A program made the position numbers and the translations under genes. 64,000 nucleotides of DNA from positions 1-64,000 of the forward strand of contig CAILAZ010000309.1 in assembly GCA_903832295.1 (NCBI GenBank), given 5' to 3'. The notes under the pieces are model-generated. The model made no database searches and was not told the origin of the DNA. It saw only the letters and a list, made by a program, of their open reading frames with translations. Of this stretch, positions 19,840-23,673 are shown piece after piece (position 1 is the first letter of the stretch; each line of letters begins with the position of its first letter). Source of the stretch: an uncultured Acidobacteriota bacterium. GTDB lineage: Bacteria; Acidobacteriota; Terriglobia; Terriglobales; Acidobacteriaceae.

Positions 19840-19942
19840 GTAGAGCGAGAGTAACTGGAAAGCAAAATTTCTGTCAACTTGAAATTGCGGCTTCACTGAT
19901 TTTTCACTTGTGCAGCGCTGGAAAGTTCGCTAGAGTGAGTGC

Positions 19943-20023
19943 ATGATTTTCTCCTCCACCATGGCCTGTTGTTGCGCGAGCATGTGTATGTGCATGCGCG
20001 ACGGCTCTGGCATGGGGAGATAA
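19943..20023 (+). CDS. predicted Cys/Met-rich leader peptide, MIFSSTMACCCASMCMCMRDGSGMGR
   Basis: 26-codon ORF with TGT TGT TGC and ATG-TGT-ATG-TGC-ATG; promoter-like TTGTGC-17-TAGAGT ends 6 nt before ATG; followed by terminator 20053-20086 with a complementary leader segment. Confidence 0.7.
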   Translation: MIFSSTMACCCASMCMCMRDGSGMGR

Positions 20024-20052
20024 TCGACAGCTTTCAGTAATAAGTTTTGTCG

Positions 20053-20086
20053 AACCCACTGCCAGAGCGCAGTGGGTTTTTGTTTT
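20053..20086 (+). terminator. attenuator/terminator immediately upstream of tRNA-Cys
   Basis: AACCCACTGC-cagagc-GCAGTGGGTT followed by TTTGTTTT; 10 bp perfect stem. Confidence 0.85.
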
Positions 20087-20088
20087 AG

Positions 20089-20164
20089 GCACGGGTGGCG
20101 AAGCGGCTAACGCGGCGGACTGCAAATCCGTTATTCATGGGTTCAAATCCCATCCCGTGCTCCA
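20089..20164 (+). tRNA. tRNA-Cys (anticodon GCA at 20122-20124), CCA encoded
   Basis: Acceptor GCACGGG/CCCGTGC, discriminator T then CCA; anticodon arm GGACTGCAAATCC; T-arm ATGGGTTCAAATCCCAT. Confidence 0.93.
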
Positions 20165-20186: not shown

Positions 20187-20291
20187 ATGACGACCACGCC
20201 CAATTCGACGATGACCGGCACGGCCACCATGGCCATGTGCATGTGTATGCGTCACGGTATCCCTGGCGTGGGCGGAGAATCCGGAGAGTAA
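20187..20291 (+). CDS. predicted Cys/Met-rich leader peptide, MTTTPNSTMTGTATMAMCMCMRHGIPGVGGESGE
   Basis: 34-codon ORF 22 nt after tRNA-Cys; shares MCMCMR[D/H]G with the upstream leader using different synonymous codons; followed by terminator hairpin 20319-20347 with a complementary leader segment. Confidence 0.68.
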   Translation: MTTTPNSTMTGTATMAMCMCMRHGIPGVGGESGE

Positions 20292-20318
20292 AGCAGCAAC
20301 ATCCGGTTCGATTTTCCG

Positions 20319-20354
20319 AAGGCCCACGCCGAACAAGCGTGGGCCTTCCCTTTT
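20319..20354 (+). terminator. attenuator hairpin upstream of ORF 20378..20710
   Basis: AAGGCCCACGC-cgaacaa-GCGTGGGCCTT then CCCTTTT; 11 bp perfect stem. Confidence 0.78.
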
Positions 20355-20377: not shown

Positions 20378-20710
20378 ATGAAACAGCAAGCGCATTCGCA
20401 ACCGCAAACCAAAACCCTGACGCACATCTACGTCCGCGACGCACAGCAGGGCTTTGTGCGCCCCTGCTGGGCCAGCGGCCCGGAGCTGTATTGCGGCATG
20501 TGCATGCGGGGTGTGGTGCGGGCGGAGCTCGGTGCGACCTGCCCGGTGTGCAGCAGCACGGTGGAGCGCATTCTGGAAGTTACCGAAGGGGGTACGCCGA
20601 AGTTCACACGCCAACGACGTGAGTGTTCCATCCGCGTGGGTGCGGCGCGGCAGGAGGAACGACAGGCTGTGCTGTTGAACTTCAGGGCTTCGCAGCGGGG
20701 GCTTGCATAA
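20378..20710 (+). CDS. small zinc-ribbon-like hypothetical protein
   Basis: Trimmed from ORF 20237..20710 to ATG with AGGAGC RBS; YCGMCMRGVVRAELGATCPVCSS CxxC pairs. Confidence 0.55.
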   Translation: MKQQAHSQPQTKTLTHIYVRDAQQGFVRPCWASGPELYCGMCMRGVVRAELGATCPVCSSTVERILEVTEGGTPKFTRQRRECSIRVGAARQEERQAVLLNFRASQRGLA

Positions 20711-20781: not shown

Positions 20782-21132
20782 CTAGGCGGCCATCATCATC
20801 TTTGCAGTCATCGAACAGGACTCGGCGCAGCGTCGGCACATTTCCGCGCAACGCATCATCATCGGATTGTCGCTCATGCCTTCGCACATCATCGCGCAGG
20901 CGCTGCACATCTCGGCGCACATCATGCACATCTTGCCGCCCATGGGAGACATGCGCATCATCATGTTTGCGCACATCTGGCACATCTCCATGCAGTCCAT
21001 GAGCATGGACATCTTCTTCATGTCCATCATGCCCATCTTCATGCACTGCATCATGGCTTCCATGCACATTGCCATGCAGCTGCGACAATCCTCCATACAT
21101 CGACGCATGTCCATTGACATTTCCATTTCCAT
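20782..21132 (-). CDS. hyper Met/Cys-rich four-helix-bundle copper-binding protein (DUF326/Csp-like)
   Basis: 116 aa with 42 Met and 17 Cys by manual count; repeated CxxxC and CxxC patterns (MRRCMEDCRSCMAMC...RCAEMCRRCAESC); RBS AGGAGA. Confidence 0.8.
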   Translation of the reverse strand: MEMEMSMDMRRCMEDCRSCMAMCMEAMMQCMKMGMMDMKKMSMLMDCMEMCQMCANMMMRMSPMGGKMCMMCAEMCSACAMMCEGMSDNPMMMRCAEMCRRCAESCSMTAKMMMAA

Positions 21133-21314: not shown

Positions 21315-22475
21315 TTATTTGGCGGCGAACGAGAGCGCGTGGCTGGCGGCGGCGGTGAGCGCCTGATCGAGGTCGGCAATGAGGTCTCCGCTGTCTTCAA
21401 TGCCTACGGAGATACGCACAAGTTCCGGCGGCAGTACGCGCGTGGCGGCGATCTCCGGGGGCACGCTGGCGTGCGACATGGCGGCCGGGAGGCTGATGGT
21501 TGAGTGAACGCTTCCAAAGCTGACGCAGATCTGGAACATCTTTGCATTCTCGGCAATTGCCTTTGCGGCCTCCGTGGAGTGCGCCGTAAAGCTCAATACC
21601 GATCCCGCCCCGCTGGCCTGGCTGCGCTGCAACGGGGAGTGGGTGAGCCCGGGATAGAAGACATGGCCGACTCGCGCATCGGCGGCGAGGAATTCCGCAA
21701 TCGCCTGGGCGTTGCGCTGCTGCGCATCCAGGCGGAGCTTCAGGGTCTTGAGTCCGCGTTGCAATAGAAAGCAGTCAAAAGGCGCCAGCGCATTGCCCTC
21801 GGCGTTTTGCAGGAAGGCGATGTCGCCGCCAAGTTTCTCATCCCGAACGACCACCATGCCGCCGGTGACATCGGCATGCCCGCAGAGGAATTTTGTCGCG
21901 GAGTGGAGGACGACGTCGGCACCCAACTCCAAGGGACGCTGGAGGTAAGGCGACATGAGGGAGTTATCCACCACAAGCAGCGCACCATTGGCATGCGCCA
22001 GCGCAGCGAGGGCGCGGAGGTCCAGTACGCGCAGCAGTGGGTTGGTGGGGGACTCGGCATAGATGATGCGGGTGCGCGGCGTGATCTTCGCCGCAAAAGT
22101 CTCGAGGTCTCCGGCATCGGCGTAATGTGCGGTAATTCCGCTGCGCTCGAGCACGCGGGTAAAGAGACGGCAGGTGCCGCCATAGAGATCGCTGTCTGCG
22201 AGAATTTCATCCCCGGCGCGCAGGGTGCGCGCCACGGCAGTAATGGCCGCCATGCCGCTGGCGAAGGCAAAGCCACGCTGGCCGCCTTCCAGCTTTGCCA
22301 CGAGTTCCTCAAGAACCTTGCGGGTGGGATTACCACTCCGCGAGTAATCGAAGTCGCCGAAGCTATCGGCGTGCTCCTGCTCAAAGGTCGCCGTCTGGTA
22401 GATGGGCGTGGCCGTGGGACGGTAGGGGTCGCCGGGGGCGGCCTGATGCTGCACGAGCTGACTAGCGAACTTCAC
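21315..22475 (-). CDS. trans-sulfuration PLP-dependent enzyme (cystathionine gamma-synthase/lyase family)
   Basis: GTG start at 22475 overlapping the previous stop, AGGAGG RBS; PLP lysine motif HSATKFLCGHADVTGG. Confidence 0.88.
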   Translation of the reverse strand: MKFASQLVQHQAAPGDPYRPTATPIYQTATFEQEHADSFGDFDYSRSGNPTRKVLEELVAKLEGGQRGFAFASGMAAITAVARTLRAGDEILADSDLYGGTCRLFTRVLERSGITAHYADAGDLETFAAKITPRTRIIYAESPTNPLLRVLDLRALAALAHANGALLVVDNSLMSPYLQRPLELGADVVLHSATKFLCGHADVTGGMVVVRDEKLGGDIAFLQNAEGNALAPFDCFLLQRGLKTLKLRLDAQQRNAQAIAEFLAADARVGHVFYPGLTHSPLQRSQASGAGSVLSFTAHSTEAAKAIAENAKMFQICVSFGSVHSTISLPAAMSHASVPPEIAATRVLPPELVRISVGIEDSGDLIADLDQALTAAASHALSFAAK

Positions 22476-23673
22476 TGGCGGCCTCCTGAGCGCGTTGGGC
22501 GCAAGACAGAGCGCAACCCGCGGCGGCAAAGGCCTGCGCGAGATCGGCGATGATGTCGGCGGGCGACTCCAGCCCGACGGAAATGCGGATGAGTCCCTCG
22601 GAAATTCCGAGAGCCGCGCGCGTCTCCGCACCGAGGTCGGCGTGAGTGGTGGAGGCCGGATGGGTGATCAATGTCTCCAGCCCTCCCAGGCTTTCGGCGC
22701 GCGAGCAGAGCTGGACCGAGTTGAGCACAGCGATGGCGGTCTCAAAGGGAGCGTCGAGTTCAAAGCTCAACATGCCACCGGCGGCGCGCTGCTGTCGCAA
22801 CGCAAGCTCGTGCTGGGGAAAGCTCCGCAGGCCCGGGTAGTAGACGCGGGCAACCGACGGTTGCGACTCGAGCCACTCGGCGATCTGCTGCGCGTTCTCG
22901 CAGTGGAGGCGCAGCCTGGCAGGGAGCGTCTTGATGCCCTGAAGGGTGAGCCACGCCTCGAAGGGCGCCTGTATGGAGCCGAGCGTCTTGCGAATCAAAC
23001 GGAAGCGCTCCGCAAGCTCCGGGTTTTGCGTAGCCAGCGATCCGCCGACGGTGGCGTTATGTCCGTCCATGTACTTGGTAGTGGAGAGGACGCTGATATC
23101 CGCACCCAGTTCCAACGGGCGCTGGAGCGCGGGAGTCAGGAAGGTGTTATCCACGGCGAGCAAGAGTCCGTGACGGCGCGTAATTTCAGCAACCGCGGCA
23201 ATGTCTGTGAGGGTGAGGATGGGATTGGCCGGAGACTCGATGAAGACGATGCGCGTCTGCGGGGTGATTGCCGCTTGCACGTTCGCGGCCTCGGAGGTGT
23301 CCACAAAACTGGCGGTGACGCCGAAGGGCTCAAGGATTTCGCGGAAGAGACGGATGGTGCCGCCGTAGAGCACCTTGGAGAGGATGGCGTGGTCGCCGGC
23401 CTTGAGGAGGGAGAAGAACAGCGTGCTCTCTGCTGCCAGACCGGTGCGGAAACACACTGCCGGCGGCGTACCCTCGAGTGCGCCGATGGCCCGCTCGAGC
23501 GCATCTACCGTGGGGTTGGAGACGCGCGAGTAGCTGAAACCCTTATCTACACCGACGGCATCGTGAACGAAGGTGCCCGTCTGGTAGAGCGGGAAGAGCA
23601 GCGAACTGGCGTGCGAATCCAGCGAGCGTCCGCCGTGAATAGCAAGGGTGGCAATGTCGTGCGGGGAAGCCAT
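22462..23673 (-). CDS. trans-sulfuration PLP-dependent enzyme (cystathionine gamma-synthase/beta-lyase family)
   Basis: LAIHGGRSLD..., PLP lysine motif LSTTKYMDGHNATVGG, VYYPGL. Confidence 0.88.
   Translation of the reverse strand: MASPHDIATLAIHGGRSLDSHASSLLFPLYQTGTFVHDAVGVDKGFSYSRVSNPTVDALERAIGALEGTPPAVCFRTGLAAESTLFFSLLKAGDHAILSKVLYGGTIRLFREILEPFGVTASFVDTSEAANVQAAITPQTRIVFIESPANPILTLTDIAAVAEITRRHGLLLAVDNTFLTPALQRPLELGADISVLSTTKYMDGHNATVGGSLATQNPELAERFRLIRKTLGSIQAPFEAWLTLQGIKTLPARLRLHCENAQQIAEWLESQPSVARVYYPGLRSFPQHELALRQQRAAGGMLSFELDAPFETAIAVLNSVQLCSRAESLGGLETLITHPASTTHADLGAETRAALGISEGLIRISVGLESPADIIADLAQAFAAAGCALSCAQRAQEAASEVR

Follow-up and report, generated by a model that had tools for sequence, protein, structure and literature searches.

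How is a tRNA gene expressed when the T-run of an intrinsic terminator ends only 2 nt before it, behind a short ORF rich in cysteine codons? This question is raised by the only tRNA gene in the window (the whole 64,000-nt stretch of DNA that was analysed), a tRNA-Cys at 20089-20164, which the initial annotation had read as the target of an attenuator built on its own codons. We find that the locus very probably controls a tRNA gene through ribosome-mediated transcription attenuation of the trp type, a reading made from sequence in the absence of expression data. A re-reading of the window reproduces to the base the positions and sequences first given for the leader, terminator and tRNA-Cys, and the parts of this unit are as follows.

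19908..19936, + strand: candidate promoter, TTGTGC-17 nt-TAGAGT, a sequence match and inferred
19943..20023, + strand: leader ORF 1, MIFSSTMACCCASMCMCMRDGSGMGR, 26 aa, with 5 Cys codons (codons 9, 10, 11, 15 and 17) and counterparts in 17 other loci
20004..20016, + strand: putative antiterminator strand inside leader ORF 1, GCTCTGGCATGGG, which pairs with 20055-20068
20053..20086, + strand: intrinsic terminator 1, hairpin 20053-20078 AACCCACTGC/CAGAGC/GCAGTGGGTT with T-rich tail TTTGTTTT
20089..20164, + strand: type-2 tRNA-Cys(GCA), the regulated gene in the proposed switch (RF00005 match, 66.4 bits)

The end of leader ORF 1 is followed after 29 nt by the strong, T-tailed hairpin. The gap of 2 nt between its tail and the tRNA leaves no room for another promoter in the window, in agreement with the earlier point that there is almost no promoter space between 20078 and 20089. 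ORFs in which a stretch of 8 residues includes 4 or more Cys lie within 300 nt upstream of 75 of 6000 random window positions (1.25%) and of one of the 30 tRNA genes of the same genome, that one being the window tRNA-Cys. The leader peptides of the window have no Pfam match, and an Rfam search of the window returns no family except tRNA above threshold, with no match to the T-box model. The candidate promoter, from which on sequence grounds the transcript would begin at the leader ATG or right beside it, is not significant on its own in a sigma-70 scan or by consensus scoring; the consensus-like TTGACA-17/18-TAGTCT or TAGAGT precedes the leader ORF in at least 6 relatives, and the window promoter is weaker than these.

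We propose that RNA polymerase starts just upstream of leader ORF 1 and that the fate of the transcript is set by a translating ribosome. With charged Cys-tRNA plentiful, the ribosome would reach the stop codon and cover 20004-20016, the terminator hairpin at 20053-20078 would form, and transcription would end before the tRNA. With charged Cys-tRNA scarce, the ribosome would stall within the Cys codons, 10-18 codons ahead of the stop, leaving the antiterminator strand free to pair with the 5' arm and loop of the terminator; with the terminator blocked, polymerase would read into the type-2 tRNA-Cys, which ordinary tRNA processing would excise, and the added tRNA-Cys would end the stalling, which makes the feedback negative. 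The same logic would be repeated at 20187-20354, ahead of the gene for the small CxxC protein at 20378. Either too little cysteine or too little tRNA-Cys can lower the level of charged Cys-tRNA, and since only the latter is cured by tRNA synthesis, we infer that the circuit is better understood as feedback on the supply of tRNA-Cys than as an answer to scarce cysteine alone; against it, uncharged tRNA made in true cysteine starvation would not help translation. Translation of the leader, stalling, readthrough, processing, the physiological response and charging of the type-2 tRNA are all inferred. An attenuator of this kind should have a leader enriched in codons of one amino acid and an intrinsic terminator between leader and gene, both of which are present in 18 loci; an antiterminator that excludes the terminator and is exposed on stalling, which holds in silico (clearly in the window, and significantly for the set average); and a regulated gene in the pathway of the sensed amino acid, here tRNA-Cys.

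The proposed regulated gene is not the ordinary tRNA-Cys. The genome to which the window belongs (4.9 Mb in 351 contigs) has three tRNA-Cys(GCA) genes, two canonical and one divergent type 2, that of the window; the canonical form reads GGCGCGG...CCGCGCC and type 2 GCACSGG...CCSGTGC. The body of the type-2 tRNA is about equally similar to the genome's own tRNA-Leu(UAA/CAA) and to its own canonical tRNA-Cys, leaving a derivation of type 2 from tRNA-Leu possible. Read from sequence, type 2 has a canonical 7/5 cloverleaf, a short variable loop, U73 and an encoded CCA. The CysRS identity elements GCA and U73 are thus kept, from which charging is inferred, while the 7/5 cloverleaf, short variable loop and U73 do not fit a selC* tRNA-Cys or allo-tRNA, in which the arms of the 12-bp acceptor domain are 8/4 or 9/3 and, in selC*, the variable arm is long (PMC7609411). 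Type-2 tRNA-Cys is widespread within the Acidobacteriaceae, and no real type-2 tRNA was found in the other sampled families of the class, where the pattern matches are not tRNAs. Many type-2 genes of the family (g51 and others) have no leader, so the leader is not essential to the tRNA. The genome has one clear CysRS gene (best match L195), weaker matches being partial and resembling other synthetases, and a Cys leader at this CysRS gene was rejected, with no Cys-rich ORF upstream. In a Terracidiphilus MAG (L145) the anticodon arm of the type-2 tRNA is damaged, with a run of A, which may reflect a decayed gene or a homopolymer error.

We find the same arrangement in relatives with a scan that is blind to cysteine. 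Roughly 85,000 genomes were scanned for a terminator tail followed within ~65 nt by a type-2 tRNA start, using a pattern without Cys codons. The scan returns 13 stretches, 12 of which are real type-2 tRNA-Cys loci (L145 included), all Acidobacteriaceae-like, and a short Cys-rich ORF (4-7 Cys codons) stands just upstream in all 12; the thirteenth, in a Rhodobacter record, is a chance match and not a tRNA. These 12 loci are related and do not represent 12 independent events, though they span several genera. The order Cys-rich ORF, T-tailed hairpin, type-2 tRNA-Cys is also present in other genera of the family, and named records with the unit include Acidicapsa dinghuensis and Terracidiphilus gabretensis. 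With duplicates between the scan and a genome search removed, 18 leader-tRNA loci remain, the window and 17 others. The synteny of leader, terminator and tRNA-Cys that had been put forward as a check thus holds at 17 loci beyond the window, all from other species. Ordinary (type-1) tRNA-Cys loci have a Cys-rich ORF upstream in 0 of 29 cases across the phylum, and none of those of the family exceeds 2 Cys in 8 residues upstream, ruling out the leader as a general property of tRNA-Cys. In a long-spaced class of units about 40-80 nt separates the terminator from the tRNA, a gap in which a promoter could hide. One acidobacterial leader-tRNA unit (L144) is in a record titled Rhodanobacteraceae, probably a misnamed MAG or contig.

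The 18 leaders are 15-41 residues long with 4-7 Cys codons each, and use both codons (54 UGU, 41 UGC). The peptides have diverged almost completely save for the Cys codons, the spacing of which varies among loci (CCC, CLCCGC, CCCCC, CMCRCLC, CCLCCC), and MCMCMR was rejected as a conserved peptide motif, its pattern matching in the family at about background level. What is kept across loci is the clustering of Cys, the ~10 codons that separate cluster and stop (in nearly all 18 loci the main cluster ends some 7-13 codons ahead of it), the terminator, and pairing between the end of the ORF and the terminator 5' arm. A metal-binding peptide would keep its ligand spacing; for an attenuator, what must be kept is how far the stall site lies from the switch strand. 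The leader data show the signature of an attenuator, in that the predicted stall-to-switch distance is kept and ligand spacing is not.

The proposed antiterminator pairing is strongest in the window itself. The duplex between 20004-20016 and 20055-20068, already described in the initial annotation, holds up with -27.8 kcal/mol (GCTCTGGC opposite GCCAGAGC), equalled by none of 300 shuffles and the strongest among the 18 loci; in the palsa MAG GCGCTGGC lies opposite GCCAGTGC, and in two g30 genomes TCTTCTGGCG lies opposite CGTCAGAAGA or CGCCAGAAGA. Over the set, the duplex of ORF end and terminator 5' arm averages -18.7 kcal/mol vs -13.4 ± 0.68 kcal/mol for shuffled tails, with per-locus significance that is modest, and weak in about half of the 18 loci. 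A comparison of native and swapped leader and terminator partners does not discriminate, because GCGGG/CCCGC is common to the loci. The terminator is present in 18 of 18 aligned loci, its outer pairs invariant; 6 of the 14 consensus pairs, in the inner terminator and the Cys-codon hairpin, have both sides changed in some sequences with the pair kept.

The entire leader folds better than shuffles (z = -5.76). Folding with the bases beneath the ribosome barred from pairing gives a window P(terminator) of 0.00-0.02 when the ribosome is at Cys codons 1-4 of 5, and 0.99 when it is at the stop, and the palsa MAG and G107 show an on/off pattern like that of the window. Only about 3 of the 18 loci switch clearly in equilibrium folding, most others keeping the terminator regardless; for these remaining loci to switch, the model would need kinetic (co-transcriptional) pairing. 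With the RNA cut before the terminator 3' arm, to mimic a transcript still being made, and the ribosome on early Cys codons, the 5' arm pairs with the leader ORF in 18 of 18 loci. The modelled antiterminator step is thus well supported in the window and as a set average, and less so locus by locus. The nucleotide data alone show the parts, their recurrence and the predicted mutually exclusive structures, and the Cys-codon attenuator first suggested for this tRNA gene is strengthened by the 17 further loci, by the retention of Cys codons and pairing, and by the on/off behaviour in constrained folding, again without expression data.

A further Cys leader and terminator and a small CxxC gene come directly after the window tRNA, and a Met/Cys-rich protein is encoded on the opposite strand beyond them.

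20187..20291, + strand: leader ORF 2, MTTTPNSTMTGTATMAMCMCMRHGIPGVGGESGE, with two Cys codons and a CCC-bearing counterpart in the palsa MAG
20265..20273, + strand: putative antiterminator strand 2 at the end of leader ORF 2, GGCGTGGGC, pairing with the terminator 2 arm GCCCACGCC at -22.8 kcal/mol
20318..20354, + strand: terminator 2, GAAGGCCCACGC...GCGTGGGCCTTC CCTTTT, with a weaker U-tract than terminator 1
20378..20710, + strand: small CxxC protein gene (ORF3), without a Pfam match and with no function assigned, the proposed second regulated gene
20782..21132, - strand: Met/Cys-rich DUF326 protein (PF03860), convergent with the unit, its membership of the switch not shown

In the palsa MAG the second unit is built in the same way, with a different, CCC-bearing peptide. 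Homologues of the CxxC gene stand behind Cys leaders in three other genomes, and in G096 and G114 a Cys leader and a terminator, but no tRNA, stand in front of the homologue; homologues were found in only 9 of 150 family genomes. From these sequences a small Cys-codon regulon is likely.

The composition of the peptides and the DUF326 neighbour, which also adjoins ORF3 homologues in two other genomes, invite another reading, in which the Cys-rich peptides are metal (copper) sensors and the nascent peptide binds Cu and alters termination in the manner of CruR. Copper-sensing, Cys-containing uORFs do exist (CruR, PMC9426467), and CruR regulates downstream expression, as is proposed for the leaders described here. 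CruR is, however, an exported DUF2946 protein of 145 residues with a fixed CXXC and RAPP that acts post-transcriptionally on copper (PMC9426467), and this does not describe peptides of 15-41 residues that have no constant Cys spacing, lack RAPP in the sequences listed and, for those of the window, have no Pfam match. The leaders instead keep their geometry to the stop, their target is tRNA-Cys, and L144 and L146 have no obvious DUF326 or ORF3 gene in 900 nt downstream, so we regard copper sensing as highly unlikely.

The ORF and hairpin could also form a separate gene for a small peptide, terminator included, with the tRNA transcribed from a promoter of its own or through constitutive leak-through. 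Peptide genes commonly have terminators, and leaderless type-2 tRNAs testify that the tRNA can be expressed otherwise; set against this are the 2 nt from tail to tRNA in the window, the 12/12 co-occurrence of a Cys-rich ORF, the complementarity of the terminator arm to the ORF end across loci and the lack of peptide conservation beyond Cys, and we give this account very little weight. Both readings fit the geometry, target and recurrence less well than an attenuator does. That the attenuator is real, with ORF3 and sulfur or copper handling as its purpose and the tRNA inserted or retained by chance, would suit the ORF3 homologues behind Cys leaders without a tRNA in G096 and G114, but the nine genomes with a homologue are far too few to accompany the leader-tRNA units, and in both the window and the palsa MAG ORF3 is preceded by a separate leader and terminator, leaving this version scarcely tenable.

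Textbook attenuators of the trp/his/pheST type combine a leader ORF and a terminator in a 1:2, 2:3, 3:4 anatomy and control biosynthetic and synthetase genes (PMC1262725), and tRNA supply is usually put down to growth-rate control and the number of gene copies. The anatomy here is alike, with a tRNA gene in place of the biosynthetic or synthetase genes. The uORFC-8-2 motif, a candidate Cys-codon attenuator that precedes cysS in Rhodobacterales (PMC8632094), shares a short Cys-codon ORF, a stem holding the Cys codons, a U-tailed terminator and feedback on Cys-tRNA supply, but its target is a synthetase gene, it has two tandem Cys and it belongs to another phylum; the window unit, with its tRNA target and a CysRS gene free of Cys leaders, does not qualify as a member. 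Polycysteine leader ORFs in the cys operons of mycobacteria (Canestrari 2020, cited in PMC13236596) resemble it in a Cys-run leader peptide that senses cysteine supply and possibly in a leaderless start, and differ in targeting biosynthesis genes; among actinobacterial cys-gene leader candidates, no conserved intrinsic terminator is found upstream of Mycobacterium cys operons (PMC1262725). In T-boxes, too, tRNA charging governs terminator readthrough, but they have no leader ORF and bind uncharged tRNA directly. The open-access literature yielded no paper on attenuation of a tRNA gene, subscription papers being outside the search. The best explanation is that the mechanism is classical ribosome-mediated attenuation and that the novelty lies in the target, a gene for the tRNA that reads the sensed codons.

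We think it reasonably likely that Acidobacteriaceae possess a conditional second tRNA-Cys switched by stalling on its own codons, a closed loop that would hold the decoding capacity of one codon family at a set point and the first such case for a tRNA gene, within a small Cys-codon regulon that includes the CxxC protein at 20378. If so, a tRNA gene under its own codons provides direct translational feedback on tRNA supply, and sensing and correction of the level of a single tRNA by bacteria becomes testable in harmless, cultured strains from soil, for example Acidicapsa dinghuensis and Terracidiphilus gabretensis.

The surroundings of the second unit hold some minor features. In L152, from the same locus as L157, a CxxC homologue ~390 nt downstream of the tRNA start has an in-frame TAG at the position of the window's Tyr codon, for which a pseudogene, an assembly error and readthrough are all possible. 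The two other genomes in which a DUF326 protein adjoins an ORF3 homologue are represented by L158 and L159. Window positions 21315-23673 (- strand) encode two consecutive PLP enzymes of Cys/Met metabolism (PF01053), convergent with the unit.
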